From a virus: DNA of 32,501 bases. The DNA is taken from the IMG/VR virus record IMGVR_UViG_3300046167_000232, positions 1-32,501 of that record. One strand, given 5' to 3'. Positions 1-32,501 of this stretch are shown here, piece after piece. The position numbers and the translations under genes were made by a program. Positions within the stretch are counted from its first letter, which is position 1; the number at the start of each line of letters is the position of its first letter. The notes under the pieces were generated by a model. That model saw only the letters and a list, made by a program, of their open reading frames with translations. It made no database searches and was not told the origin of the DNA.

Positions 1-258
1 ACTAGCTAACATAGTACAGCCAGTTTTTAACCCCCTACCCCCTATGACAGCAATTCTACTCCTCTTTTACCTAGCCAAGATCTATCTGCACCTTGATGTC
101 ACCAGCTACCTGTACCTGTGACCTGTCTATCGGCTTGTACCCAGCCCGGTCCAGTAAATCCTTGCTCGCCTCTAGCTGAACGTACTCTGACTTAGCGCCC
201 ATGGCTAGCCTTCTCACCGTCCCAGCAGCTAGGGTAGCACTCAACCCGAACTCCTCGT
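1..258. repeat. Left copy of 258-bp terminal direct repeat
   Basis: Bases 1-258 are repeated at 32244-32501 with a single difference (C at 167, T at 32410). The difference falls in the third position of an alanine codon of the small terminase gene and is silent. A repeat of this size at both ends fits the direct terminal repeats of T7-like phages. It also fits the end overlap of a circular or circularly permuted assembly. It carries the 3' two thirds of the small terminase gene on the minus strand. Confidence 0.9.
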
Positions 259-452
259 TCATCCTCTGCATCAGATACTGCTGCACATGTGGTAGCTTCA
301 TCGTCTTGGTTGCAGTTACTCTTCCAGACTCACCAGCTACTATACCCAGCCAACTCTGCTGCCTTAGCTATCGTACACCCGTTTGCTACAATGGTGTCAA
401 CTAACGCTGTCTGTTTCGTAGTCAGCTTTCTTGTAATCGGAACATTACTCAT
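71..452 (-). CDS. terS: Terminase small subunit (TerS), interrupted by a +1 frameshift
   Basis: This is the DNA-recognition subunit of the packaging motor and the partner of TerL at 29054-30575. The first part (452-330, 40 residues) has the TerS helix-turn-helix start: LTTKQTALVDTIV, then AKAAELAGYSS. The second part (331-71) continues with ESGRVTATKTMKLPHVQQYL, the expected continuation, but in the +1 frame, because a TGA follows TGG at 332-330. Removing one base near 330-335, for example one G of the GGT on the minus strand, restores a 126-residue protein, a normal TerS length. The ATG at 301 would give only the C-terminal 76 residues and is probably not the true start. The gene is transcribed toward the left physical end, and its 3' part is copied in the right-end repeat. 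Confidence 0.75.
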
Positions 453-483
453 CCGTTCTTACCATCCTTTATCCTCATGCTTG

Positions 484-506: not shown

Positions 507-539
507 AACAGGCACTATTTGGTCGGGCTATGTCAATAT

Positions 540-554
540 GTGACGTAGCGTCAC
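540..554. promoter_or_regulatory. Palindrome GTGACG-TAG-CGTCAC (operator-like site 1)
   Basis: The 6-bp arms are perfect and flank a 3-base centre. The core TGACG-N3-CGTCA recurs exactly at 4000-4012, 4659-4671 and 5634-5646. This copy lies in the divergent control region, about 90 bp from the TerS start and 350 bp from the first rightward gene, where a regulator site would be expected. As RNA it would be a 6-bp stem with a triloop. The binding protein is unknown. Confidence 0.55.
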
Positions 555-564
555 TACCTCATTT

Positions 565-580
565 AGGTATCATACTACCT
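565..580. promoter_or_regulatory. Palindrome AGGTA-N6-TACCT
   Basis: Perfect 5-bp arms (565-569 and 576-580) surround a 6-base centre. Outside them TTTA and, after two unpaired bases, TAAA extend the symmetry. It sits 10 bp after operator-like site 1 and just before a TTGACA hexamer, so a regulator-binding role is plausible. I found no second copy to support a defined motif. Confidence 0.3.
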
Positions 581-719
581 CTAAAAGCTGTTGACATGCT
601 AAACATACTATAACCAACATCGAGTGTAAGTATCGCTAATTCAGATACGCATTACGTCGTTCTCCTTGTCAATTCACCCAACCTCTTGCCTTGCCCTGCG
701 TGACAAGCTCCACAAAACA

Positions 720-884
720 TTCGCAACTACTTTCTATTTGTAGCTCATATCTCTGTGTGTGTGGGCTCTTCCTTGCCTAGTCCAACCTGCGCCTGTTGGA
801 GAAAGCAGTTGCGAACGTCATGCCCCGGCAAGCCGGGATTTGTGGGCATGTCTCTGGGTCTGCATCAAGAGGGTTGGCCTCTTG
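720..884 (+). promoter_or_regulatory. Structured 5' leader of the rightward operon
   Basis: Several inverted repeats follow one another before the first rightward gene. TTCGCAACT (720-728) pairs with AGTTGCGAA (807-815) and encloses TCCAAC/GTTGGA (781-786 and 795-800). CATGCCC (819-825) pairs with GGGCATG (844-850) and overlaps CCCGGC-AA-GCCGGG (824-837). CAAGAGG (866-872) pairs with CCTCTTG (878-884) directly before the AGGAGAAC ribosome binding site at 891-898. There is no T-run, so these are not ordinary terminators. The region could be a regulatory leader or a small structured RNA. It matches no RNA family I can name. Confidence 0.45.
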
Positions 885-903
885 ACTAACAGGAGAACTA
901 GAA

Positions 904-1320
904 ATGACTAAGGTATCTAAATTAGCTCAACTTAAACTAGAAGTTATCAACTATCATACTACAGATAAGCCATCAGCTGACGGCCCAATCATCAACGATA
1001 AATTCCTCATCGGCTTAGGACGTGATGCTTGCTACACATCAAACAACAGCCTCACCTTCAAGAAGAAACAGATTGCTGATTCACTCGCTGAATACGACAT
1101 CGCTGTAGATGAGAAGAATACATACGCTATGGAGCGGACAGAACGCTGGATCAACACGCTCCTCCCTGAGCTTGAAGAGCTTCAAGTCCGTCACAACGCA
1201 GACTGTGAAGTCTTCGCTGCACTGACAGGCGGTGAGGTCTGGACTCCAAACAAGCGCCCCGCACCTAACAAAGCTGCCAAGCCAGCTAACTTCAGCAAGC
1301 TCAGAGAGCAGGTGGCGTAA
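904..1320 (+). CDS. Hypothetical protein, first gene of the rightward operon
   Basis: This is a 138-residue soluble protein of unknown function. The start follows a good Shine-Dalgarno (AGGAGAAC, 891-898). The protein is mostly predicted helical, with charged segments around ERTERWINTLLPELEELQ, and ends in a Pro/Lys/Ala-rich tail. There is no signal peptide, no membrane segment and no catalytic motif I recognise. Its place directly behind the long structured leader and ahead of the recombination genes suggests that it is made early, perhaps in large amount. Early phage proteins in this position often act on the host, but that is inference from position only. Confidence 0.75.
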   Translation: MTKVSKLAQLKLEVINYHTTDKPSADGPIINDKFLIGLGRDACYTSNNSLTFKKKQIADSLAEYDIAVDEKNTYAMERTERWINTLLPELEELQVRHNADCEVFAALTGGEVWTPNKRPAPNKAAKPANFSKLREQVA

Positions 1321-1330
1321 GTCACCCCTC

Positions 1331-1352
1331 GAGGGGAGCTTCGGCTCCTCTC
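1331..1352 (+). other. Stem-loop with UUCG tetraloop after the first gene
   Basis: GAGGGGAGC pairs with GCTCCTCTC (one G-U pair) around a TTCG loop, a very stable C(UUCG)G hairpin. The overlapping CCCCTCGAGGGG is itself a perfect palindrome and offers an alternative fold. A T-run is absent. What follows is a 9-bp period repeat (CAACTCTAT, about 2.6 copies, 1353-1376). It may act as an mRNA 3'-end stabiliser or weak attenuator. Confidence 0.45.
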
Positions 1353-1386
1353 AACTCTATCAACTCTATCAACTAGGAGAAACGTC

Positions 1387-1474
1387 ATGGGCGATACGTG
1401 AAGACAAGCTAATCTTTGGACTATACATCGTAGTTCTTTTCGTAGTCACGCTCGGCATAGTATTCATGCCGTGA
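1387..1474 (+). CDS. Small single-pass membrane protein, frameshifted at its second codon
   Basis: A ribosome binding site (AGGAGA) lies 7 bases before ATG at 1387, but the frame read from this ATG stops after four codons. Dropping one G of the GGG at 1389-1391 gives a 28-residue protein, MAIREDK followed by one strongly hydrophobic segment (LIFGLYIVVLFVVTLGIVFM), ending at the TGA at 1472-1474. The hydrophobic stretch is read in a frame that is open well upstream but has no other sensible start. A single-base insertion error is therefore likely. Function is unknown. Small early membrane peptides in phages can affect the host envelope, but nothing here shows that. Confidence 0.45.
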
Positions 1475-1485
1475 CGTGGCGTAAC
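1471..1485. promoter_or_regulatory. Imperfect copy of the GTGACG-N3-CGTCAC palindrome
   Basis: GTGACG-TGG-CGTAAC differs from the perfect palindrome by one base in the right arm. It overlaps the stop codon of the preceding small membrane protein and lies about 50 bp upstream of the TATAAT box at 1532-1537, in a normal position for a regulator site. Being one mismatch away, it is supporting evidence only. Confidence 0.3.
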
Positions 1486-1510
1486 CTTGGGGGTTTTGCC
1501 ACCCCCACAC

Positions 1511-1537
1511 CTTACAAAAAGCGTCCGACCATATAAT
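1511..1537 (+). promoter_or_regulatory. Candidate sigma-70 promoter before the DUF932 operon
   Basis: A perfect TATAAT box lies at 1532-1537 in an intergenic stretch. CTTACA (1511-1516) matches four of six bases of TTGACA but with only 15 bases between, which is short. A start near 1544 would give a leader of about 36 bases before the gene at 1580. A GGGGG/CCCCC inverted repeat lies just upstream (about 1490-1507). Confidence 0.4.
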
Positions 1538-1579
1538 GTAATGGTTAAAGTTTAAATAAACTTCTGAAGGAGAACATGA

Positions 1580-1774
1580 ATGGAAATTGCTGCACACCGC
1601 GTCAATAACATCAGGGTTAAAGAAACAATCCATGACACATTTGTTGTCAAAGACATCAGCTTATTTGATGGCAACGGTAATGAATTAAAAATCAAACTGT
1701 TTGGTCAGAACCGGACAGCACTCAACTTTATTTACGAAGACATACTTGATGCAAGGGAGAACGAGTTATGCTAG
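1580..1774 (+). CDS. Hypothetical 64-residue protein upstream of the DUF932 gene
   Basis: This small soluble protein reads like one compact beta-rich domain (ETIHDTFVVKDISLFD, then ELKIKLFG). The ATG at 1580 is 7 bases behind AAGGAG. An out-of-frame ATG at 1576 closes after ten codons and is not used. The 3' end overlaps the next gene by 7 bases, so the two are probably translated together. No family is recognised. Confidence 0.7.
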   Translation: MEIAAHRVNNIRVKETIHDTFVVKDISLFDGNGNELKIKLFGQNRTALNFIYEDILDARENELC

Positions 1775-2616
1775 ACTTTCAATCCAACAGCTACAACTTT
1801 CCGGTTGAAGAGCAGCCTGTCTTTACTCAAGACGGTGAATTAATTCCAGATCATAAGTGTATCGTGCGCACTGACACAGGCAAAACGCTTGGCTTGCACG
1901 GCAGTAGATACAAGATGATACCACATGAAGATGTGGTTGAATCAATCGTTGACGGAGTTAAAGCAAGCAATCTTACTAGTGACTATGAGATCAGCGTTAA
2001 CGTAGCTGAAGATGGCCGTAAGCTAAGAGGTGAGATAATCTTTCCTGATCTAGTGCAAGAGCCAGTAGTCGGTGACTACACACAGTTCCGCGTCAGCTTC
2101 TTTAATAGCTACGATGGATCATGGCCCTTCTCTCAGCAAGCCAATGGTCTCAGGTTGTTTTGCTTGAACGGATGCACCACACCAGATGCTATTGCACGAT
2201 CACGCTTCAAGCACACAGCATCAGTCAACGTGGATGGTAGCGCAGCTAAGATTATAGGCGGGGCCGAACACTTCATGAGTCGCAGTAAAGAATGGCAGTC
2301 ATGGATGCAGACACGATTGAACAACGATCAAGTCGAACAGTTCTTTCGCTCAACCATATGCAAGGTAGTTACTAAACAAAAACAAATGGTTAAGACTAAC
2401 GAGAAGCAACTTGAGAATCTTATCTCTGGTTGGGATCGTGAGAAAGCAGATCTCGGTTGGAACAAATGGGCATTGTACAATTGCCTGACTCATTGGGCCA
2501 CGCATACTGATGACCTCAAGTCACCAGAGGTAGCCCGATACAATCGAGAGATTGCAATCAGCAATGCAATGAATCATCAACTGTTCACTTCGATGGTAGG
2601 TGAGAACGTAATCTAA
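1768..2616 (+). CDS. DUF932 family protein
   Basis: This 282-residue protein has features of the DUF932 (phage/plasmid-like) family: the early GLHGSRYKMIPHEDVVESI segment, the middle VGDYTQFRVSFFNSYDGS followed by LRLFCLNGCTTPD, and a helical C-terminal half. Proteins of this family are common beside recombination and replication genes in phages and plasmids. Their biochemical role is not established. The ribosome binding site (AGGGAG) lies inside the upstream gene, which overlaps by 7 bases. No catalytic motif is obvious. Confidence 0.8.
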   Translation: MLDFQSNSYNFPVEEQPVFTQDGELIPDHKCIVRTDTGKTLGLHGSRYKMIPHEDVVESIVDGVKASNLTSDYEISVNVAEDGRKLRGEIIFPDLVQEPVVGDYTQFRVSFFNSYDGSWPFSQQANGLRLFCLNGCTTPDAIARSRFKHTASVNVDGSAAKIIGGAEHFMSRSKEWQSWMQTRLNNDQVEQFFRSTICKVVTKQKQMVKTNEKQLENLISGWDREKADLGWNKWALYNCLTHWATHTDDLKSPEVARYNREIAISNAMNHQLFTSMVGENVI

Positions 2617-2626
2617 GGAGAGTGCT

Positions 2627-2830
2627 ATGCGCATGTCACGACAACACTATCAATTCTTAGCTGATAAACTTGGGCCACTTGTACCGTGGCCCACTCACCT
2701 TCATAGTATTGCTGATGAACTCGAGGCAACTAACCCAAAGTTTAACCGCGATAAGTTTATCAAACGTGGAACAGAAGCATGGGAAAAGAACTATGCTTCA
2801 CCAGTTATAGACGATGAGGTGCCGTACTAA
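2627..2830 (+). CDS. Hypothetical small protein with conserved WPTH segment
   Basis: A 67-residue acidic/aromatic protein with LVPWPTHLHSIADELEATNP and FNRDKFIKRGTEAWE, a pattern I associate with small conserved phage proteins of unknown role next to DUF932 genes. The AAGGAGAG ribosome binding site precedes ATG 2627. A second in-frame ATG two codons later is possible. Its stop overlaps the start of the next gene (TAATG), indicating translational coupling. Confidence 0.7.
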   Translation: MRMSRQHYQFLADKLGPLVPWPTHLHSIADELEATNPKFNRDKFIKRGTEAWEKNYASPVIDDEVPY

Positions 2831-3016
2831 TGAAAGTATTAAGAACAACAGTAGCATGTAAAGAATGCACAGGAGATGGGTTCATCGAGGTTGAGAGTAT
2901 GCCAATGAGAACCTCATACAATGATGCACCCTGAACCATATTGTGAGTCAGAACCTTGTGAAAATTGTAACGGCTCTGGTGAAATACAAATGGATGATGT
3001 TGACTTTGAGGATTAA
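2830..3016 (+). CDS. CxxC zinc-finger-like protein, interrupted by a +1 frameshift
   Basis: The first frame (2830-2934) gives CKECTGDG, half of a DnaJ-type CxxCxGxG zinc finger, then stops. The second (2921-3016) supplies the other half, CENCNGSG, and an acidic C-terminus. Dropping one A of the AA near 2920-2921 joins them into a 61-residue protein with a CxxC pair at each end of about 40 residues. This is a common design for small zinc-binding phage proteins. The start overlaps the preceding stop (TAATG). The role is unknown; zinc binding is inferred from the four cysteines. Confidence 0.6.
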
Positions 3017-3035
3017 CATGCTGCATTAGTGCAAT

Positions 3036-3320
3036 ATGAAATCGTATCTTCAAATACTAAATAAACAAGCTAAGGATGCTAACGTGTCCTTGCTTAGAGC
3101 GTTTAGTCGGGCAATGATTCCGACTTCAACATACTACAGAACAATCAAAGGCACGACTGAGATACGGTATGATACTGCGTTAAAGGTACACCATGCCATC
3201 GAACAAGTTCGTCAGATACAACAAGCCGTTGAAGATACCAAAGGATTACGGTCCAATGGTAAGCCAGTTAATAGACGCTCGATCAAAGCGAGAGTTAAGT
3301 CAAGAGGAACTAGCGCATAA
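3036..3320 (+). CDS. Helix-turn-helix (Cro/XRE-like) DNA-binding protein
   Basis: The N-terminal 55 residues look like a repressor-type helix-turn-helix: NVSLLRAFSRAMIPTSTYYR, then a domain ending in the helix DTALKVHHAIEQ. After about residue 65 the protein becomes basic (NRRSIKARVKSRG). That stretch overlaps the next gene in another frame, so the C-terminus as read here may be wrong if a base is missing. No strong ribosome binding site precedes the start. It is a plausible regulator of the early arm, possibly acting on the TGACG-N3-CGTCA sites, but that link is a guess. Confidence 0.6.
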   Translation: MKSYLQILNKQAKDANVSLLRAFSRAMIPTSTYYRTIKGTTEIRYDTALKVHHAIEQVRQIQQAVEDTKGLRSNGKPVNRRSIKARVKSRGTSA

Positions 3321-3441
3321 GATAGGATGCACCTCCTCATTGATTCACAAGTGGGAAACACACAAACGAATACCTTCTGGGTTTATGTTAATGTGTTGGC
3401 TGGATGCTTTAAGCTATGACATCACGGTCACAGAAAGGTAA
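3193..3441 (+). CDS. XRE-family helix-turn-helix regulator
   Basis: A near-consensus XRE domain is visible: LSQEELAHKIGCTSSLIHKW, followed by the usual E-x-x-x-R-x-P loop and a final helix. The domain is complete if translation starts at the internal ATG at 3256. The upstream ATG at 3193 adds 21 residues. It overlaps the preceding helix-turn-helix gene by 65 to 128 bases in a different frame and overlaps the next gene by 26 bases. It is one of several candidate transcription regulators in the early arm. The frame is secure because of the motif; the start is not. Confidence 0.65.
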   Translation: MPSNKFVRYNKPLKIPKDYGPMVSQLIDARSKRELSQEELAHKIGCTSSLIHKWETHKRIPSGFMLMCWLDALSYDITVTER

Positions 3442-3691
3442 AGCACACATCTGTGCAAGCTGTAAGATAGCAACTCACTTCTATGTTGCCATACTCAAAA
3501 CACACAGCGGACGTTCAACAGAAAAGCACTGGTTCATTTGCATGAGCTGTTACGTCAACGACAAATGGCAAGAACCAACGTCGAAAACAAAACCAAACAA
3601 AAAGATAATTAAAAAACCTAGCGTCAAGCTAAAGGCTGGCGCGTGGGAAGACAGCATCCAAGCAAACGTAAAGCCATCAACCGATTGGTAA
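3416..3691 (+). CDS. Hypothetical protein with two CxxC pairs
   Basis: This 91-residue protein has CASCKIATHF near the N-terminus and CMSCYVND about 30 residues later. The two CxxC knuckles could bind one zinc ion. The C-terminal third is lysine-rich (KTKPNKKIIKKPSVKLK), which suggests nucleic-acid contact. It starts inside the 3' end of the XRE gene with no clear ribosome binding site, so translation is probably coupled. Function is unknown. Confidence 0.6.
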   Translation: MTSRSQKGKAHICASCKIATHFYVAILKTHSGRSTEKHWFICMSCYVNDKWQEPTSKTKPNKKIIKKPSVKLKAGAWEDSIQANVKPSTDW

Positions 3692-3701
3692 GGAGATTGA
3701 C

Positions 3702-4172
3702 ATGCTCATCTATGGAATCGACCCCGGATTTACAGGAGCTGTCAGCATATATGACACAGAACTAGACAGCTTAATCATTCACGATATTCCTGTAGTTAAA
3801 TCCCCAAAGGGTAAGACGCTTATCAACTTGCCTGAGTTACTTTCAATCTTAAACAACACAGAAAATCAACCATCCCTCGCAGCCATTGAGCTTGTAAATG
3901 CCATGCCTAATCAAGGTGTTAGCAGTACATTCAGGTTTGGTCAGGGCTTTGGTCAACTGCAAATGGGGATCGTGGCATCAAAGCTACCCATAGAATATGT
4001 GACGCCACGTCAGTGGAAGAAATACTTTGACCTTACGAGAGACAAAGGTGAGAGTAGAAGACTAGCGAAGCTCTGCTTCCCTAACCACGCACACTATTTC
4101 AAACGAGTCAAAGATGATGGCCGAGCAGAAGCCGCACTCATTGGATTGTATGCAAAAGAAAACTTAATCTAA
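3702..4172 (+). CDS. RuvC-like Holliday junction resolvase
   Basis: This 156-residue protein has the RNase H-fold features of RuvC: GIDPGFTGAVSIYD with D7 in the first strand, AAIELVN with E63 in the third strand, the TFRFGQGFGQLQMG loop, and a C-terminal KDDGRAEAALIG with D138/D139 and E143 as candidate last acidic ligands. It would cut four-way or branched DNA, which fits the neighbouring exonuclease and annealing protein and the need to resolve concatemers before packaging. A good AAGGAG site precedes the start. A perfect copy of the TGACG-N3-CGTCA palindrome lies inside the gene (4000-4012). Confidence 0.85.
   Translation: MLIYGIDPGFTGAVSIYDTELDSLIIHDIPVVKSPKGKTLINLPELLSILNNTENQPSLAAIELVNAMPNQGVSSTFRFGQGFGQLQMGIVASKLPIEYVTPRQWKKYFDLTRDKGESRRLAKLCFPNHAHYFKRVKDDGRAEAALIGLYAKENLI
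3999..4013. promoter_or_regulatory. TGACG-CCA-CGTCA palindrome (site 2), inside the resolvase gene
   Basis: The 13-bp core at 4000-4012 is a perfect copy of the motif. The outer base pair (G...G) is not symmetric here. Its position in a coding region argues against a simple promoter operator and leaves open a role in replication, recombination or mRNA structure. Confidence 0.45.
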
Positions 4173-4182
4173 GGAGAACAAC

Positions 4183-4398
4183 ATGACTGTTACACAGAAA
4201 AATGAAATCAAATCTCATCTCAAGATGGGCTTTCGAATCACAGCAGTTGATGCACTAGATAAATTCGGATGCTTTAGACTAGCAGCACGAATCAAAGAAA
4301 TTAAAGACGAGGGTATGGAAGTTGACAAAGTGATGGTCAAAACCATTAACGGTACTCATGTCGCACAGTATTATAATCCATCAAAGGTACGCACATGA
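4183..4398 (+). CDS. Helix-turn-helix domain protein (HTH_39-like)
   Basis: This 71-residue protein has the layout of the small phage winged-helix family seen as HTH_39: IKSHLKMGFRITAVDALDKF, then CFRLAARIKEIKDEG, then a short strand pair ending HVAQYYNP. Such proteins are often small DNA-binding regulators. It has an AAGGAGAACAAC site and overlaps the next gene by 4 bases (ATGA). Confidence 0.75.
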   Translation: MTVTQKNEIKSHLKMGFRITAVDALDKFGCFRLAARIKEIKDEGMEVDKVMVKTINGTHVAQYYNPSKVRT

Positions 4399-4661
4399 CA
4401 TACAAAACAACCAAGCTCAGTGATGCAGCACGCCCTTCTATATGGGACGCACATGTCTCAAAGGCAGCAAGCTCTCCTGTTATGGCCCGTGAGTACAAGA
4501 AGTCTGGCTATGTCTTAGACAGTGATAAGATTATGGCGCAGCGTATCCGCAATGGTGAGGCTATCGGTGAGCCATACCTTAAAGGTGAAACTAAGAAGCG
4601 CCTCAAGAAATTCCAGAACCTCTCAGAAGAGCACTTCGAAAAGTACGGAAAGTACGAGTGA
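4395..4661 (+). CDS. Hypothetical 88-residue basic protein
   Basis: A soluble, lysine-rich protein with no motif I recognise. Its start overlaps the stop of the helix-turn-helix gene (ATGA), so the two are probably co-translated. The segment YVLDSDKIMAQRIRNGEAI and a basic helix (KGETKKRLKKFQ) suggest a small nucleic-acid-associated or adaptor protein, but this is weak. Its stop codon TGA is built into palindrome site 3. Confidence 0.65.
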   Translation: MTYKTTKLSDAARPSIWDAHVSKAASSPVMAREYKKSGYVLDSDKIMAQRIRNGEAIGEPYLKGETKKRLKKFQNLSEEHFEKYGKYE

Positions 4662-4672
4662 CGTAACGTCAC
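4658..4672. promoter_or_regulatory. Palindrome GTGACG-TAA-CGTCAC (site 3), upstream of the exonuclease
   Basis: A perfect 15-bp copy with the same outer pair as the site at 540-554. It begins at the stop codon of the preceding gene and lies about 60 bp upstream of the exonuclease start, a natural place for an operator or for an RNA hairpin between cistrons. Confidence 0.55.
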
Positions 4673-4677
4673 TTCGT

Positions 4678-4710
4678 ATTGCCTAAGCTGCACATAAGCA
4701 GTAGGCTAAT
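4678..4710 (+). other. Intercistronic stem-loop before the exonuclease gene
   Basis: ATTGCCTA (4678-4685) pairs with TAGGC-T-AAT (4702-4710, one bulge), then CTGC (4688-4691) pairs with GCAG (4698-4701) around the loop ACATAA. There is no T-run. It ends about 12 bases before AAGGAG, so it may tune translation or mRNA stability of the exonuclease gene. Confidence 0.4.
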
Positions 4711-4733
4711 AACTGATAACAAAGGAGAACAAC

Positions 4734-5525
4734 ATGGAACGCAAAGGTTTCATAGGTGGTTCCGACTGCGTAAAGATAATGCAGGGGAACTGGCTAGAGT
4801 TATGGCAGATCAAGACAGGTCGAGTTGAGCCTGAAGATTTGTCTCGCAATCTTGCAGTGCAGATGGGCATACAGACTGAAGAGTTTAATTTGCTTTGGTT
4901 TGCCAATGAGTATGACTGCACTCTTACTGACTTCCAGAAAACATTCGAAGAAAAGATTGGATCAGTACCAGTTAAGGGTACGGTTGACGCTATGGTCGGG
5001 GATTCTATTGAGGACTCTATCGTAGAAGCCAAGCACACCAACTCATACAATACTTTGGATAAAGTAATTGAGTATTACATGCCGCAAGTGCAGCTATACA
5101 TTCATCTAGCAAAAGCTGAAGGCGCTCATATGTCTGTTATCTTTGGCAATAATAAGTGGGAGTCAGCTCATGTCAGACGCAACGAAGAGTATTTCAATTC
5201 TATGTGGGCAGTGGTGTCAGACTTCTGGGGTTACGTTCTTCGCGATGAAGAGCCAGTTGGTAATGACCAGCCGATACAACTTAGCATTGACAAGGTGTCG
5301 GTGGACAACATGGTCAAGCGTGACGCCACGCAAGACAACCAATTCAATGACGCAGCCTACACTTACGTTACTCTAGAAGCAGATGCCAAAGCGTTTGAGT
5401 CAGCCAAAAAACAAATCAAAGAAATGGTTGGTGACAATGAGCGTGAAGTTTACTGCGATCACTTAACTGCAAAGCGCGACAAGCGTGGAGCAATTCGTAT
5501 TACAAGGAGAACAACCAATGACTGA
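4734..5525 (+). CDS. YqaJ-type (lambda exonuclease-like) viral recombinase nuclease
   Basis: This 263-residue protein has the PD-(D/E)xK nuclease layout of the YqaJ family. GGSDCVKIMQG is near the start, followed by a helix with MGIQTEEFNLLWF (E49/E50), then GTVDAMV with D85, then IVEAKHT with E98 and K100 as the catalytic E-x-K. The following segment YMPQVQLYIHLAK carries the usual glutamine helix. Such enzymes resect double-strand ends 5' to 3' and hand the single strand to an annealing protein, here the ERF gene that overlaps by 8 bases. The AAGGAGAACAAC site is strong. A palindrome and a stem-loop lie just upstream. Confidence 0.88.
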   Translation: MERKGFIGGSDCVKIMQGNWLELWQIKTGRVEPEDLSRNLAVQMGIQTEEFNLLWFANEYDCTLTDFQKTFEEKIGSVPVKGTVDAMVGDSIEDSIVEAKHTNSYNTLDKVIEYYMPQVQLYIHLAKAEGAHMSVIFGNNKWESAHVRRNEEYFNSMWAVVSDFWGYVLRDEEPVGNDQPIQLSIDKVSVDNMVKRDATQDNQFNDAAYTYVTLEADAKAFESAKKQIKEMVGDNEREVYCDHLTAKRDKRGAIRITRRTTND

Positions 5526-5959
5526 TACAGCAATCAAGGCGCTGCTCAAAGCGCAGCAAGCAATGGAGTCTGTAAAGAAAGACAGCCTCAACCCACACTT
5601 CAAGAACCGCTACGCCTCACTCGAAGCAGTGATTGACGCTACGTCAAAGGTGTTCCAAGAGAATGGGTTCGTTGTCATGCAGCCGTGTGGCCGTGACGAG
5701 CTTGGCATGTATGTCGAGACAAAGATACTTCACACCTCAGGAGAGGCGTTCTCAAGCAGGGTTTACCTTGTCTTGAGTAAGCAGGACATGCAGGGCTTAG
5801 GCAGCGCCATAACGTACGCTAGGCGCTACGGGACTACTAGGCATGGCTTGCCTTGCACCAGAGGATGATGACGGGAACATGGCAGCTAAACAATCCAGCG
5901 GTGTTCAAGTGACCAAAGGTCTATCATCAGAGAATCCATCTGCATCAGGCGGGTGGTAA
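5518..5959 (+). CDS. ERF family single-strand annealing protein, with a +1 frameshift
   Basis: The N-terminal part is typical ERF: SVKKDSLNPHFKNRYASLEA, then QDMQGLGSAITYARRYG. As written the frame leaves the family at the GGG of 5830-5832 and stops at 5868. Removing one G restores LLGMACLAPEDDDGN, the conserved ERF continuation, and runs to the TAA at 5957-5959, giving 146 residues. ERF proteins anneal complementary single strands and, paired with a YqaJ exonuclease, form a two-component recombination system. The start is ATG 5518 behind AAGGAGAACAACC, overlapping the exonuclease stop by 8 bases. A perfect palindrome copy lies inside (5634-5646). Confidence 0.85.
5633..5647. promoter_or_regulatory. 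Palindrome TTGACG-CTA-CGTCAA (site 4), inside the ERF gene
   Basis: A perfect 15-bp palindrome. Its 13-bp core is the exact reverse complement of the core of site 1 at 540-554 (centre CTA versus TAG). It lies in the early coding part of the ERF gene. Confidence 0.45.
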
Positions 5960-5968
5960 ACTAAGGGG

Positions 5969-5986
5969 GTTAATTCCCCAATTAAC
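5969..5986 (+). other. Stem-loop between ERF and the SSB-like gene
   Basis: GTTAATT pairs perfectly with AATTAAC around a CCCC loop. It ends about four bases before the AAGGAG site of the next gene, so it could limit ribosome access or protect the mRNA end. Too AU-rich and without a T-run to be a normal terminator. Confidence 0.4.
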
Positions 5987-6002
5987 ATAAGGAGCCAGAA
6001 GC

Positions 6003-6374
6003 ATGGCAGATACATACGACGATACCAACCGGGGCGCAGCGTTCACGCCGTTCCCTACACAGCAGATGATCTTGCAAGGTAAGCTCAACGTCGAGGGCAA
6101 TGACAAGAAAGTTATGCTGGTTAAAGATCAGACGCGAGACGGCAAGCCTGTCATTGAGATGTATGAAAAGATTGGCGTGTTCTTTGACAACGATAAGAAA
6201 GGTAACGAGTCAGCTCCCGACTACAGCGGCCCACTTGGTGACACAAAACGTCTTGCTGGGTGGAAGAAGATGAAGGATGGTAAGCCTTATATGTCGTTCC
6301 AAGTTAGCGAAAAGATGTCAGGTGGCAGCAAGCCAACAACTGATCCCTTGCAAGGTGATGACATACCGTTTTAG
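6003..6374 (+). CDS. Single-stranded DNA-binding-like protein with acidic tip
   Basis: This 123-residue protein ends in DPLQGDDIPF, closely resembling the acidic C-terminal tip by which SSB recruits partner proteins. The body (AGWKKMKDGKPYMSFQVSEK) resembles DUF736-type OB-fold proteins rather than classical SSB. Position directly after exonuclease and annealing protein supports a single-strand DNA-binding role. The AAGGAGCC site is good. A strong terminator follows at 6399-6425, so this is probably the last gene of the main rightward transcript. Assignment rests on the tail and the context. Confidence 0.6.
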   Translation: MADTYDDTNRGAAFTPFPTQQMILQGKLNVEGNDKKVMLVKDQTRDGKPVIEMYEKIGVFFDNDKKGNESAPDYSGPLGDTKRLAGWKKMKDGKPYMSFQVSEKMSGGSKPTTDPLQGDDIPF

Positions 6375-6398
6375 AAAGGAGGTGTTCTCCTATCAACT

Positions 6399-6425
6399 GG
6401 TCAGCCTTCGGGCTGGCCTTTTTTT
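6399..6425 (+). terminator. Strong rho-independent terminator after the SSB-like gene
   Basis: GGTCAGCC pairs with GGCTGGCC (one U-G pair) around a TTCG tetraloop and is followed by seven T. This is a textbook intrinsic terminator for rightward transcription. The gene at 6441 starts only 16 bases after the T-run, so its expression needs read-through or antitermination. Confidence 0.9.
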
Positions 6426-6440
6426 AACTGAGGAACAAAC

Positions 6441-7127
6441 ATGCAGGGAACAGAACTTAGCAAGTGCATTAACGCAGCAGAGATGGGGCTAACGCAGAAA
6501 GAAGCATCCACCTTATTAGACATACCTTATTCAACTGTTAAAGAACTTACAAATAAATATGGTATAAAATTCGTATGCCCCAGAAGGAAAGCCAATGAAA
6601 GAAGAAGCCTCCAAAGCCCTCGAAAGAGCGAAGCGTCTACTATCAATAATGATAAAGAAAGCAGACAGCAATCAACGCCCAAACCTAAAGCAAGAACTAG
6701 AAGAGATAAAAGCTCTGATAGAGATAGCGCAAAAAGAATAGATGAAATCTACAGCAGCGGCCTTCCTCGAACGGAGAAGTATGAGCTTCTATATGCTGAA
6801 GCAGTATGGACCTTCGAGCAGAAGATGATTGATCTAAAAATGCGGCCCCCGTTTCCTGTTAAGAAAAACTATACACCAGAGAATGCTTCTAATGCAGCAA
6901 TAAGAAAGCAACGAGAGCAGTCAATTCATAGACGCCAAATAATAATGGATTGCTTTAAGGGTAACGAAACAAGAGTAGCTGAAGACATTACGAGAAAGAC
7001 AAAGCTACCACTTCGTATATCCAGCCAGATGCTAGACCTTATGTATAGAGACGGAGTGCTTAACAGAGAGCGAGTTCAAGTTGGAAAGAACAAACGCAAC
7101 AGCGTCTATCATTACTCAAAGAATTAA
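6441..7127 (+). CDS. Open frame with N-terminal HTH and C-terminal winged helix; possibly three genes
   Basis: Read as one frame this is 228 residues: an N-terminal helix-turn-helix (GLTQKEASTLLDIPYSTVKE), a Ser/Arg/Lys-rich middle (about residues 50-105), and a C-terminal winged helix (RVAEDITRKTKLPLRISSQM to the end). The middle is low in hydrophobics, while another frame there encodes a convincing coiled-coil peptide (6595-6741). With one A added to AAAA near 6566-6569, the HTH gene would end at TGA 6596-6598, overlapping that peptide's ATG. With one A added to the AA near 6778-6779, a third gene would start at ATG 6742 with AAAFLERRKYELLYAEAV. I think three tightly packed genes are more likely than one. 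The start has a weak GAGGAAC site. Confidence 0.55.
   Translation: MQGTELSKCINAAEMGLTQKEASTLLDIPYSTVKELTNKYGIKFVCPRRKANERRSLQSPRKSEASTINNDKESRQQSTPKPKARTRRDKSSDRDSAKRIDEIYSSGLPRTEKYELLYAEAVWTFEQKMIDLKMRPPFPVKKNYTPENASNAAIRKQREQSIHRRQIIMDCFKGNETRVAEDITRKTKLPLRISSQMLDLMYRDGVLNRERVQVGKNKRNSVYHYSKN
6595..6741 (+). CDS. Nested coiled-coil peptide (48 residues)
   Basis: This frame lies entirely inside the 6441-7127 frame, shifted by one base. It has a good ribosome binding site (AGAAGGAAAG) at the right distance from ATG 6595. It encodes a highly helical, charged peptide (EASKALERAKRLL and LKQELEEIKALIEIAQKE) with regular hydrophobic spacing. Its TAG is followed directly by ATG 6742. The match of codon pattern, start signal and packing makes it likely to be a real gene. 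Whether it truly overlaps a coding frame or replaces it depends on the indels discussed for 6441-7127. Confidence 0.5.
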   Translation: MKEEASKALERAKRLLSIMIKKADSNQRPNLKQELEEIKALIEIAQKE

Positions 7128-7252
7128 TCGTGTGGGTGGCCGTTGATAGTTAAAAGTTGGCGCTTTTTGGTAGCAACGTCATCCGAGGTAAACAACCGCC
7201 ATCCCCGTGGATAAGCTGATTTGTATTGTGATGATAGCCACCCACTCGATTC
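7128..7252. other. Convergent intergenic region bounded by a 9-bp inverted repeat
   Basis: The two arms meet here. GTGGGTGGC (7132-7140) and GCCACCCAC (7237-7245) are perfect inverted repeats about 96 bases apart, close to the two flanking stop codons. Inside are a T5 run preceded by GCGC (about 7160-7168) and ATCC-CCGT-GGAT (7201-7212). It could be a large two-way terminator structure or a small RNA. No coding frame and no tRNA T-loop signature is seen. Confidence 0.4.
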
Positions 7253-7708
7253 TTATACTACTAACTCAAAATGAGGTCCATCAATAAATGGCCTCCGACC
7301 CTGTGATCTACGCAAATCAATATAACTATTCATTGCATCTTCCATATTGCCCTCACCATACTGAGCAATGTTTGGAACAGACCAAGCAGCGCCCCAGATA
7401 ATCGGAACATCAACAGCGCGGGCGCCCTCTGCCATAGCGTCAGCAATCTCATCATAGAGATTGAGCTCCCATCTGCCTCCATCAACGTAAGCCATGAGGT
7501 CAACAGCCAAGCCATCAATATGCTTAGACTTCATTGTTTGACTAGCACCCTTAGCAACAAGAGCCTTCTGCTCCTCGATCGTGCGCAGCCCACAGATCAC
7601 AGAGAAGTCTTGCCTAGTCACGTTGATTGCATACTTAACAACAGCAACCATACGTTCATCAACACCAATCAGCCTATCGAGACTGCGCTTACCTAACTTG
7701 TAACTCAT
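7253..7708 (-). CDS. Endolysin, peptidase M15 (L-alanyl-D-glutamate/VanY-like) family
   Basis: This 151-residue, single-domain enzyme is predicted to cut the peptide cross-links of the cell wall. The zinc site is visible: SKHIDGLAVD provides H63 and D70, and the C-terminal DGPHFEL provides H146. ICGLRTIEEQKALVAKGAS near residues 38-56 is the family's substrate-side segment. It has no signal peptide, so it needs a holin, and a holin-like gene overlaps its start by 4 bases (ATGA). It is the last gene of the leftward operon. Confidence 0.88.
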   Translation of the reverse strand: MSYKLGKRSLDRLIGVDERMVAVVKYAINVTRQDFSVICGLRTIEEQKALVAKGASQTMKSKHIDGLAVDLMAYVDGGRWELNLYDEIADAMAEGARAVDVPIIWGAAWSVPNIAQYGEGNMEDAMNSYIDLRRSQGRRPFIDGPHFELVV

Positions 7709-8050
7709 CGTTTGAATCCTCTCATTGTTCTAATTCCAAAGCTGGCAGCTATGCTGGCATAACAGCTCCATTGAAACCACTGAGGCGCAGCTTCAATATT
7801 AGCGAAGCCCTCCCTCATATAGGGCTGAAGCGGAGGCACGAATGAACATACAATTATAGCTATAAAGGCTATGGTCCACGCCTCGTCTTTCCAAGAATTA
7901 TTACTGGCTTGTATCGCAGCCTTGCTCCCAGCCTATCTCACCAGTAGCAATCTTCATTTTAGTTTCTGCTTCAGCTTTCTTAACGGCAGTCTTCCCATCA
8001 ATATAACTAGCAGCCAAACCGCCAAGCGATCCTATGATTTGACCAATCAT
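7705..8050 (-). CDS. Holin-like membrane protein, interrupted by a +1 frameshift
   Basis: The first frame (8050-7901, 49 residues) starts MIGQIIGSLGGLAASYIDGK, with a hydrophobic N-terminus and a charged helix. The rest, SWKDEAWTIAFIAIIVCSFV and a final hydrophobic helix, is in the +1 frame. Deleting one G of the GG on the minus strand (CC at 7920-7921) joins them into 114 residues. The order (N-terminal anchor, charged helix, NSWKDE, two C-terminal membrane segments) resembles the 3TM holin family. It overlaps the EF-hand gene upstream (ATGA) and the endolysin downstream (ATGA), as expected for a holin-endolysin pair. Confidence 0.65.
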
Positions 8051-8355
8051 TTCTTAGCCTCCATCGCATTGAATCCAAAGTAACCAACGACCACACCGCT
8101 AGCAGCCACCACATACACGCTTGCAATGTCAGCAATGAGATCAGCAGCAGTGTCTAAGCCCAACGCAGAGGCCCCTACAATAGCGAAAGGGTAGAGCAGC
8201 ATACCAGCAGCGCAAGCCATAGTTAAACGACGCTGTGTGTCCCGCTTTGCATCAGCATCAGAAAGCTCACGCCAACGATCTTCAAGCGCTAACTTCTGCC
8301 ACTCAACCTCGTCAATAGTGCCATCCTTATTTACGTCATACTTGTCAAACGTCAT
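8047..8355 (-). CDS. Membrane protein with N-terminal EF-hand
   Basis: This 102-residue protein begins with a textbook 12-residue EF-hand calcium loop, DVNKDGTIDEVE (residues 7-18, ligands D7, N9, D11, T13, D15, E18). Next comes a charged helix (ALEDRWRELSDADAKRDTQRR) and two hydrophobic segments (about 49-68 and 76-95). A single EF-hand on a two-helix membrane protein beside the holin is unusual. It may sense or bind calcium at the membrane, possibly to time lysis or stabilise a pore, but there is no direct evidence. The ribosome binding site is TAGGAG. It overlaps the holin-like gene by 4 bases. Confidence 0.75.
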   Translation of the reverse strand: MTFDKYDVNKDGTIDEVEWQKLALEDRWRELSDADAKRDTQRRLTMACAAGMLLYPFAIVGASALGLDTAADLIADIASVYVVAASGVVVGYFGFNAMEAKK

Positions 8356-8375
8356 TTTCTAAACTCCTAGCGTAG

Positions 8376-8589
8376 TTAATAGCGTAGTGTTTGTGATGCG
8401 TAATGATAACGACCCTGCCCTTCTTTGTCATACACAACATAATCACCCTTCTTATTTTGGTATAACCTCAAAGCAATACACCGTAGTCTGGCTTGTAGTT
8501 ATCAAGACCTTTGCATCCTCGAGAGCTTCTCTGCACTCGCCTTCAGTAGTGAACTGATTGAGTTGATAATGCTCAATGTTGTTATTCAT
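8376..8589 (-). CDS. Hypothetical small protein, probable +1 frameshift near its middle
   Basis: From ATG 8589 a 45-residue frame runs to TAA at 8452-8454 (FTTEGECREALEDAKVL, TTVYCFEV). If one T of the TT near 8469-8470 is dropped, the frame instead continues through KKGDYVVYDKEGQGRYHY to a stop at 8376-8378, giving 70 residues. That end sits just before the ribosome binding site of the EF-hand gene, which makes the longer version attractive. A third frame (MTKKGRVVITH...) is also open over the same end. Function is unknown. Confidence 0.5.
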
Positions 8590-18105: not shown

Positions 18106-21100
18106 CTAGTATCCCAACATACGGAAAAGTTCATTTGCTTGCGTTACTGGTTGCTGAAATCTCATAGCTTCTCTTTGCTTTCTTTTTTCTGCTACCAACT
18201 CTTGTCTATCAAGCTCTACTTCTTCTGCTGTACTTTTGTTAATTAAGGCTTGGGCGTCATAATCAGCTAGCTCGCTTTCATCCCACATAGGAATGTCTAG
18301 CTGGCCGTCAATTTCCATTATTAAAGGACGCAACTCATTGTTATCATCTACAAAATATGCGTAGTAGGATGGGCCAACTGTTGCCTCATTAGGTACAAGG
18401 TAAACATCTTTTGGCTTAGGCTGATCGCCTACCGCCCTTGCTGTTACACCTGACACTATTTCAAGGTCTAAATCTCCTTCCATTGCAATACCTGCTGGAA
18501 CTTCAATTGTGCTAGGAGTGCGCGTTGCATAGTTTCTAAGCCTGTATCCATCAGGCAACTCAGAAACAATTATATCTATAAAAGCATCGCGTCTTGCTTC
18601 ATTAGGAAACATTTTTTCAAGGCTGCGAGAGGTAAGTGACAGCTCGCCAACTGGAAACTTTGGGTCTTGGACAACTCTTGTCTTGTGGTAATATGTGTTA
18701 AAGATTTCGTCTATTCTTGTTATTACATCTTCTTTAGTCCCGCCCATTCTCGCAAGGCTTTCAGCTGTACTCGAAAGCTCTACTGCTACTAAGTCTCCAT
18801 ATTTTTCAGTTAAATACTGTGAAGGGCTTTGCTTCCCAAAAACTCTTTTAACATTTATATCAGATTTAGGATCATCCATTCTGGCCCTTAAAGCCATAGC
18901 AATCTCTCTAGCGTCACCGTCTTTTGTTGTGCTTCTAATTTCCATAACAGTTTTTAGGAAAGCAGTTTTCTCTGCGCTTATAGGAGCGCCCTCTCCTAAA
19001 CCAAGTCTGTTTACAAATAAACCAGTTGACGTAAGGTCATTTGACAAGACCGAAAACAAGTCAAGAAGAGCGTCGGCACCGGGAGTTTCAAGCCCTAAAG
19101 ATATATTGGTTAGCCCATCAATTAGTTCTTGGGATGCAGTTTCTCTTAACGCTTGCAGTAAATCAGCGCGTCTTTCCTCCGTCGCGTATGTAGACGGATC
19201 GGTTAAAACAAAACCCTGAGAAGATAGAATTTCATTTTGTAATACTCTATCTTTTTTATCTGTTACTTTACCGCCGCCTGCTCGGATTCTGTTTGTGTTA
19301 TCAATTTCTTCTTGAGCTTGTAAAATCTCTGCTTCTTTGCGGCTAACCTTTTCTCTAACAGAGTTGATATGATTAACTACAGAGCTTCGTTTGTCTTCAG
19401 GAACAGTTCCAAGTATTAGATTACCAGCCTTTGCTACAGCAACGCTTGTACCAAGAATTTCTTGACCACCGCTACTAACATAGTTTGCAAGAGCGTTCAT
19501 ATCAAACGAGCTCATATTTGCGGAAACAATGTTGGCAATACCTTTGCCAGCAGCAGAGCGCAGACCACCAGATAAGGAATCGTACTCGTTTGCGGTAATA
19601 TCACCACTTGCAAGCGCAGCTGCGGCAAGAGCCTCTGCTTCAGCAACAGCCTCTGAATCGTAAACTCCGTTTAGGAACCTAGTCGATTCATTTGAAACTT
19701 GAGTAAAGAGGTTTGCATTTCTTATCTCTCGATCAATTCTATCCTGAACTTCATTTTGAGTGCCGCTTAATAATGTACCTACATAATTACGATCTTCAGC
19801 TGGATCATAAAGCATAGAGCCTTGAAGCGTAATTAACGCAGCTTGTTGCAATGTGCTTAATCTAGCAATGTCTTGAGGATCGCCAGTAACTAATGCTTTC
19901 TTCAAGGCATCAATGTTGCCATCACTTGCCATGCCGATAATAGCTGCATCAAGACCAGCCCGTCTTGAGTCTTGCCTTAAAGCGTTTGACGCTTCAACGC
20001 CAAGACCCTTCTGCTGTGCAACACTAATTTCTTGTAGGCTTCTTTGATAGGCATCATTCGCAGCGTTGATTGAGCCAATAACAAAAGTTTGCTCACCAGA
20101 AGCCCAAGCATTTCTTGAGATTTTTGTAGCATTAGCTCGACTTGGCATAATGTCAGTCGCATTATAATTGCGACCAAACTCTAATGCTTGCTGTTTATAT
20201 ATCGCCGCCTGCTCACTAGCTTTTGCAGCAGTGATTGCGTTCAAGTTAGAAGATATAACGCCAGCTTCAGAAAGAATGGCTCTGGTGTTGTTTCTATCAA
20301 CATATCCGATAAACGGCTCAAGCGCTTCTCTTTGCGCTTGTGACATATCATCCGCTCCAATTAAGCCCTGACTGCCAATGTAGGCTTGCATAGCGGCTTG
20401 CTGCACTGGAGTAGAATTCTGCATAGCTACTTGGAGAGCCCCAGACATAGCCTGTGCGCCCAGAGTAGATTTTACTGTTGTCGAGTACCCCGGTTTGTAA
20501 AGCTCTGCCTTCTCGGCCTCTACAGAGGCTGTGATGCGCTCTTCTATCATTACAACAGAAGCCTCAAGCTGGCCTGACGCTGCTGTGTCATAGATTACTT
20601 CAGAGAATTCATCGTTAGTTGTAGCTACGTTTTGTGCAGCAGCCGCTCTGCTTTTAGCTCTAGCCGCATCGGCAAGCTTAATTTTAGTAGACCCCATGAC
20701 ATAAGAACCAGAGTCCATAATAACATTCTTAAAGCGGTCATCAGCGCCCTTAGCCATAGAGCCAAGATAAGACTCAAACATGTTTTGATACTGAACAGGG
20801 TCTTCATACTTAGAAGCAAGCTCGGCGGATTTTAGTCGGATGTCCTTATCAACAGAGTCAACGAAGCGGCGCTCAACCACTTGCTCAAATGCAGAAGCAG
20901 CAATGCTACCCATGCCCTCCATGCTAGACAGCACTTCTGGCTTACCAGTTGCTGAGTCAAAAACCTTTAAATCTTCTGTTTGAATAGACTGAGCCGCTTC
21001 TGTTCCAAACTTTTCGGCGTTTACTTGAGCGCGTTGATAAAACTCTTGCCCAGCTTTGTCGGCAAAGTTTGATATAGCGCGGCCAACATTCTGTTCACCA

Positions 21101-32243: not shown

Positions 32244-32501
32244 ACTAGCTAACATAGTACAGCCAGTTTTTAACCCCCTACCCCCTATGACAGCAATTCT
32301 ACTCCTCTTTTACCTAGCCAAGATCTATCTGCACCTTGATGTCACCAGCTACCTGTACCTGTGACCTGTCTATCGGCTTGTACCCAGCCCGGTCCAGTAA
32401 ATCCTTGCTTGCCTCTAGCTGAACGTACTCTGACTTAGCGCCCATGGCTAGCCTTCTCACCGTCCCAGCAGCTAGGGTAGCACTCAACCCGAACTCCTCG
32501 T
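32244..32501. repeat. Right copy of 258-bp terminal direct repeat
   Basis: Identical to bases 1-258 except T at 32410 (C at 167). The bases just outside, GAGGGACC before ACTAGC, are absent from the left end, so the repeat boundary here coincides with the start of the window. Confidence 0.9.
32314..32501 (-). CDS. terS: Terminase small subunit, partial copy in the right terminal repeat
   Basis: This is the C-terminal part of TerS, truncated at the window end, encoded by the second copy of the terminal repeat. The one base difference from the left copy leaves the protein unchanged (third base of an alanine codon). In a linear molecule this copy has no start. It becomes part of a whole gene only when ends are joined. 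Confidence 0.75.
   Translation of the reverse strand, partial: EEFGLSATLAAGTVRRLAMGAKSEYVQLEASKDLLDRAGYKPIDRSQVQVAGDIKVQIDLG

Follow-up and report, generated by a model that had tools for sequence, protein, structure and literature searches.

We analyzed a 32,501-bp stretch of viral DNA (IMG/VR virus record IMGVR_UViG_3300046167_000232, positions 1 to 32,501; hereafter, the window) that carries a family of TGACG-N3-CGTCA palindromes with the full consensus GTGACG-Y-N-R-CGTCAC. The box is conserved at a distance of 2-3 bp from the −35 element of the phage packaging promoter, and a matching box stands at the same distance from the −35 in front of fadL genes of Rhodobacteraceae. We infer that a protein binds the box, that this protein is encoded by the host and that its binding activates transcription. 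On balance, and with somewhat better than even confidence, we favor the reading that the box is the operator of a host fatty-acid regulator that has been recruited by the phage, where it probably activates the late and recombination promoters.

We found exactly four perfect copies of the palindrome in the window (541-553, 4000-4012, 4659-4671, and 5634-5646), as the initial annotation had counted, compared with a mean of 0.01 in 100 dinucleotide shuffles. No other 5-N3-5 palindrome recurs as often in the window as TGACG with its four copies; any arm reached four copies in only 1 of 300 Markov-simulated genomes, so the excess survives correction for the choice of any palindrome. Allowing one mismatch added two further sites (1472-1484 and 19027-19039). 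The former belongs to one of two proposed near copies, 1471-1485, which is partly conserved and stands; the other, 5320-5334, has three mismatches to the long form, is not conserved among relatives and was dropped.

Site O1 (540-554; GTGACGTAGCGTCAC) is a perfect 15-bp palindrome that lies between two outward-facing TTGACA boxes. The leftward box (531-536, minus strand) is the −35 of the terS promoter; it is 3 bp from O1 and invariant in the aligned relatives (29 related contigs). The rightward box (591-596, plus strand) is a −35-like element of the rightward early arm and marks the end of the conserved block. All promoter elements here are inferred; on the minus strand they further include a non-consensus −10 (GCCTGT, 508-513), 17 bp from the −35, and a G/A-rich leader (GGGGGGAGAGAGGGAGAGGGGGG, 481-507), which is near-invariant in relatives and where the terS transcript presumably starts. 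The −10 position itself varies across relatives (GCTATC, GCCTGT, GCTTGT, GTCCAA, and others). Each of the 60 distinct terS-upstream regions of the phage group carries the box (sequences were counted as distinct if their DNA differed, and counts are not weighted by descent), and the DNA beyond the box diverges completely. The distance to the leftward TTGACA is exactly 3 bp in 53 of the 60 regions and 2 bp in a further 4, and 16 regions carry at least two copies of the box, with a tandem spacing of 22 bp. A second palindrome, AGGTATCATACTACCT (565-580), occupies the place of the second TGACG operator copy of other lineages and is conserved in one lineage. Since O1 sits between the two arms and its fixed neighbor is the leftward −35, the description of the family as restricted to the rightward arm was mistaken; likewise, the suggestion that it is something other than a simple promoter box does not survive, given its fixed position 2-3 bp from a −35.

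O2 (1471-1485; GTGACGTGGCGTAAC) is a degenerate, intergenic copy that follows the open reading frame (ORF) 904-1320 and is conserved in part; in relatives, this interval upstream of the DUF932 gene holds up to three copies, 22 bp apart. A block, GCGTCCGACCATATAATG (1521-1540), with the inverted repeat AAGTTTAAATAAACTT downstream, is also conserved upstream of the DUF932 operon. O3 (4658-4672; GTGACGTAACGTCAC) lies upstream of the recombination exonuclease gene (exo); like O1, it is intergenic, as had been noted. The O3 box is present in 24 of 52 distinct exo-upstream regions and is conserved within otherwise diverging DNA in the alignment of the 29 relatives. A weak exo −35 (TTGCCT, 4679-4684, plus strand) follows 6 bp from O3, with a −10 (TAGGCT) at 4702-4707, and the spacer between them is occupied by another palindrome, CTGCACATAAGCAG (4688-4701). 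Promoters of exo that carry the box have weaker −35 elements than those that do not, with 2.17 versus 1.15 mismatches to TTGACA (p = 2e-7, uncorrected for descent). The anticipated conservation in relatives despite diverged flanks thus holds for O1 and O3; relatives do not keep the near copy at 5320, and the conservation of the two coding copies is not exceptional.

These coding copies lie, as originally placed, inside the ruvC-like resolvase gene (4000-4012, codons VTPRQ) and the erf annealing gene (5634-5646, codons IDATS), and neither shows a sign of function. Their codons are retained in close relatives; however, of all stretches of that length, 21% in ruvC and 12% in erf are kept equally well, and functional constraint on both copies was therefore rejected. 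Chance or coding coincidence fits these two copies as far as is visible, as well as the near copy at 5320, but as an explanation of the whole family it is extremely improbable: it is contradicted by the shuffles, the simulations and the conservation of sites 1 and 3, and for those two sites it is refuted. Contigs L007 (2257-2305) and L030 (1693-1741) hold two more perfect copies, 33 bp apart, at the N-terminus of a leftward scaffold-like gene, where they encode ESDATS or ESDVTS; the homologue in the window is without them.

We then considered whether the sites might act as RNA triloop hairpins in the transcript. Each could fold into a 6-bp stem closed by a 3-nt loop, and transcription would cover the sites at 1471 and 4658, which start within stop codons. 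Among 82 distinct promoter-linked sites, however, the arms never co-varied and we observed no compensatory change; the outer pair was broken in 26% of the sites, and the loop-adjacent pair was C.A in 48 of 82. Both promoters that flank site 1, moreover, lie downstream of it. What stays invariant in the arms is the letters themselves, beyond mere pairing, and this argues that the element is read as DNA. Of the options that the initial annotation had left side by side, a sequence-specific regulator is therefore supported, and hairpins are very improbable.

The box is not confined to this phage group. Searching IMG/VR for the box with TTGACA 2-3 bp after it returned at least 119 contig stretches, mostly from the group itself. 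In the cobavirus-like contigs L040, L044, and L066, which are unrelated to the group, a perfect sigma70 promoter stands on each side of the box. Five other unrelated contigs (L320, L340, L346, L360, and L365) show the same layout, with boxes repeated in tandem every 22-23 bp; in the unrelated contig L091 the box is 6 bp from TTGACA. Distant, Hodr-like relatives have the terS promoter without the box.

The link to the host comes from the promoters of fatty-acid genes. The tail-fibre DNA of the window is 91% identical to that of Roseobacter phage CRP-7, which points to a member of the Rhodobacteraceae as the probable host. A strict genome scan for GTGACG...TTGACA gave 6 matches, not above chance, because it demanded both TTGACA and the outer G. 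When the outer base and the last −35 base were relaxed and one family was searched, fadL promoters appeared: in 298 genomes of the Amaricoccus macauensis family (Rhodobacteraceae; the identity of the family was taken from one named seed genome), TGACGYNRCGTCA followed by TTGAC after 3-4 letters was found in 27, where about 1 was expected and a reversed-pattern control gave 1. Among 121 Rhizobiaceae genomes, the same pattern was found in one, the seed genome of that set. Of 15 host matches that were fetched, 14 lie ∼60-130 bp upstream of an OMPP1/FadL gene; this position, together with the lack of a consistent reading frame, led us to reject a coding origin of the matches (a D-A/V-A-S-x-I-D peptide). 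Starting instead from fadL genes found by a protein search that was blind to the box, 14 of 25 carried it 2-3 bp from TTGAC (hand count).

Two other sets of upstream regions, both tested without reference to the box, gave the same result. The merR gene of a merR-fadE-fadA operon has the box upstream in 20 of 30 loci compared with 0.24 expected (two loci were counted twice), and another acyl-CoA dehydrogenase gene has it in 7 of 28 compared with 0.1 expected. A MerR-family gene beside fad genes thus carries the box in its own promoter; it precedes genes for an acyl-CoA dehydrogenase and a thiolase-like protein, after which a fadB-like gene apparently comes, and a second merR adjoins (the names fadA and fadB come from reading the sequences alone). 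Intergenic matches in 51 genomes include fadL, an acyl-CoA dehydrogenase gene, a CoA-transferase-like gene, and a MerR-family regulator. The fadL and merR-fad promoters have the half-site, the N3 spacing and the Y-N-R center in common with the phage box, and the distance to the −35 at fadL is like that at O1 (2-3 bp). Tandem copies ∼22 bp apart, as in the phage, occur in the merR-fad operon and in one fadL promoter (L371). The arms of the host box are more degenerate than those of the phage, and the merR-fad operon adds a 16-bp N4 variant, TTTACGTTAACGTCAA, that the examined phage promoters did not show.

In the host contig L507, an operon at 3188-8540 contains two merR paralogues, an acyl-CoA dehydrogenase gene, and a thiolase-like gene, with an array of N3 and N4 TGACG palindromes between the merR genes; this array looks like an undescribed control region of a fad regulon. 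A box with identical spacing was also noted in Mesorhizobium (L311, 5664), 90 bp ahead of a gene for an esterase-like alpha/beta-hydrolase.

We propose that GTGACG-Y-N-R-CGTCAC is bound as DNA by a dimeric transcription regulator, for which it acts as an operator 2-3 bp ahead of the terS −35; the DUF932 and exonuclease/annealing operons have it upstream of their promoters as well. The regulator would most likely be one that the host encodes to govern fatty-acid use. It would bind the phage box with dimers on one face of the helix at the 22-bp repeats, and the bound regulator would probably activate late and recombination promoters that are otherwise weak. The phage packaging promoter would then be a copy of the host fadL promoter architecture. 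The weaker −35 elements of box-bearing exo promoters fit an activator, although they do not prove one; the sign of action is uncertain, and activation is favored.

Several observations weigh against a host regulator acting in this way. The bare palindrome is not enriched genome-wide in the host (34 matches versus 38 in the reversed control, 51 genomes), so the host regulon would be narrow, and no site was found in ten cultured phages scanned, eight of which are roseophages. In L066, the perfect sigma70 promoters that flank the box would hardly need activation. The last point is in keeping with an alternative that we judge possible, if clearly short of even, namely that the box is a repressor operator at which a dimer abuts the −35 and silences the late and recombination promoters until relief comes from fatty-acyl signals or phage functions. 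What is at issue in this alternative is the sign of action; it would suit a host protein and a phage protein alike. In general, repression is common among MerR/LiuR-type regulators and those of fatty-acid degradation. A repressor, however, sits less well with the rigid 2-3 bp spacing, which overlaps neither the −35 nor the −10, with the weak −10 elements, and with the weaker −35s where the box is present.

As to the identity of the host protein, the two merR paralogues and the neighboring N4 palindrome, which has an identical half-site, hint at a binder of the MerR type. MerR activators usually bind between the −35 and the −10, whereas the box of the phage and fadL promoters is upstream of the −35; this speaks against a MerR-type binder. 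TGACGYNRCGTCA also fits the T-N11-A dyad of LysR-type regulators, as many palindromes do.

The most serious rival to a host regulator is a protein of the phage itself. ORF 3036 (3036-3320, plus strand) encodes a 94-aa Cro/C1-like helix-turn-helix protein and is the best phage-encoded candidate for an operator binder; the box could be its operator, with another protein of like specificity reading the fad boxes of the host, although we regard this as unlikely. Counting against the host regulator, ORF 3036 occurs in every box-bearing contig of the group in which its locus is covered, and three of these have no ORF 3193. It has a predicted lambda-repressor-like helix-turn-helix fold, with weak matches to 434 Cro, DdrO, and SinR, and STYYR is invariant in its putative recognition helix; the box-less Hodr-like phages carry homologues with a changed sequence. 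On the other hand, one Hodr-like set retains STYYRT yet is without the box, the unrelated box-bearing contigs L066 and L091 have no recognizable ORF 3036, and the conserved palindrome at the ORF 3036 start codon is a different one, CTGCA-N4-TGCAG, rather than the TGACG box. A phage operator would also have to accommodate the identical box and spacing at host fad promoters. Bacterial genomes yielded no close homologue of ORF 3036. The earlier list of helix-turn-helix candidates was reasonable overall, with ORF 3036 now the sole live phage candidate: the HTH_3 protein of ORF 3193 was rejected as the regulator, being absent from the box-bearing contigs L049, L053, and L114 and having homologues in the box-less Hodr-like phages.

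The CTGCA-N4-TGCAG type of palindrome occurs in the exo spacer (4688-4701) and at the ORF 3036 start codon (3022-3033), and in one clade it shows symmetric changes in both arms (TCGC/GCGA). It is possibly the operator of ORF 3036.

Phage promoters under host transcription factors have precedents. LexA sites in coliphage 186 and CTXphi are operators for a host regulator in phage promoters; the present box differs from them in that it is a fatty-acid regulon box at a late/packaging promoter, and lysogeny genes were not recognized in the parts of the phage genome examined. The Ogr-type late promoter box of P2 (TGT-N12-ACA, centered near −55) is likewise a palindromic activator box upstream of a late-promoter −35, but differs from the TGACG box in sequence and position. 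Among known Rhodobacter regulators, CenR, an OmpR-family protein of Rhodobacter sphaeroides, acts at activated Rhodobacteraceae promoters through a TGACGC-type half-site directly upstream of the −35 (PMC9275681). Its site is a direct repeat, TGA-N8-TGA (PMC9275681), which was not found here, the phage and fadL boxes being inverted repeats; a CenR box was therefore rejected. RegA/PrrA of Rhodobacter recognizes a 15-bp element with an imperfect inverted repeat, like the phage box, and prefers GCG-N-C ends (PMC5359404). With a RegA score, phage boxes reached 4.3-6.5 bits and fadL boxes −5.4 and −6.2, compared with 2.9-16.3 (median 10.4) for sites from chromatin immunoprecipitation; the phage boxes are at the low end of this range and the fadL boxes far below it, and RegA/PrrA was rejected as well. 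No motif matching the box was found in the RamB/ScfR and GafA papers.

The box described here for a fad regulon of Rhodobacteraceae had no earlier report, and no published regulator, in the literature searched. More tentatively, and with confidence somewhat below even, we suggest that this widespread marine roseophage group, together with several unrelated phages, places packaging and late genes under a host regulator of fatty-acid degradation. If so, late transcription would be tied to the lipid or acyl-CoA state of the host, through an operator common to phages and host down to the 3-bp distance from the −35. A concrete, testable input that regulates the late genes would then be known for a large group of uncultured roseophages, and the control of packaging genes would be linked to lipid metabolism in an ecologically important bacterial family.

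The two ends of the window overlap directly over 258 bp (1-258 and 32244-32501; 99.6% identity), so the contig is a complete genome, either circular or with terminal repeats. The left arm includes terS, terL, and the genes for the portal and major capsid proteins, and the right arm includes DUF932, the RuvC-like resolvase, a RecE-like exonuclease, Erf, and SSB. The portal protein is closest to that of Pelagibacter phage Hodr (63%). The terS gene (71-455, minus strand) is frameshifted in the window only, leaving an ORF at 71-301, whereas relatives have an intact gene of ∼125 aa; the frameshift is a single-base indel near 345-350, probably introduced by assembly or sequencing. The erf gene (5485-5868) is also frameshifted in the window, where it ends in RRYGTTRHGLPCTRG, compared with RRYGLLGMACLAPEDDDGN or a close variant in the five relatives that were checked.

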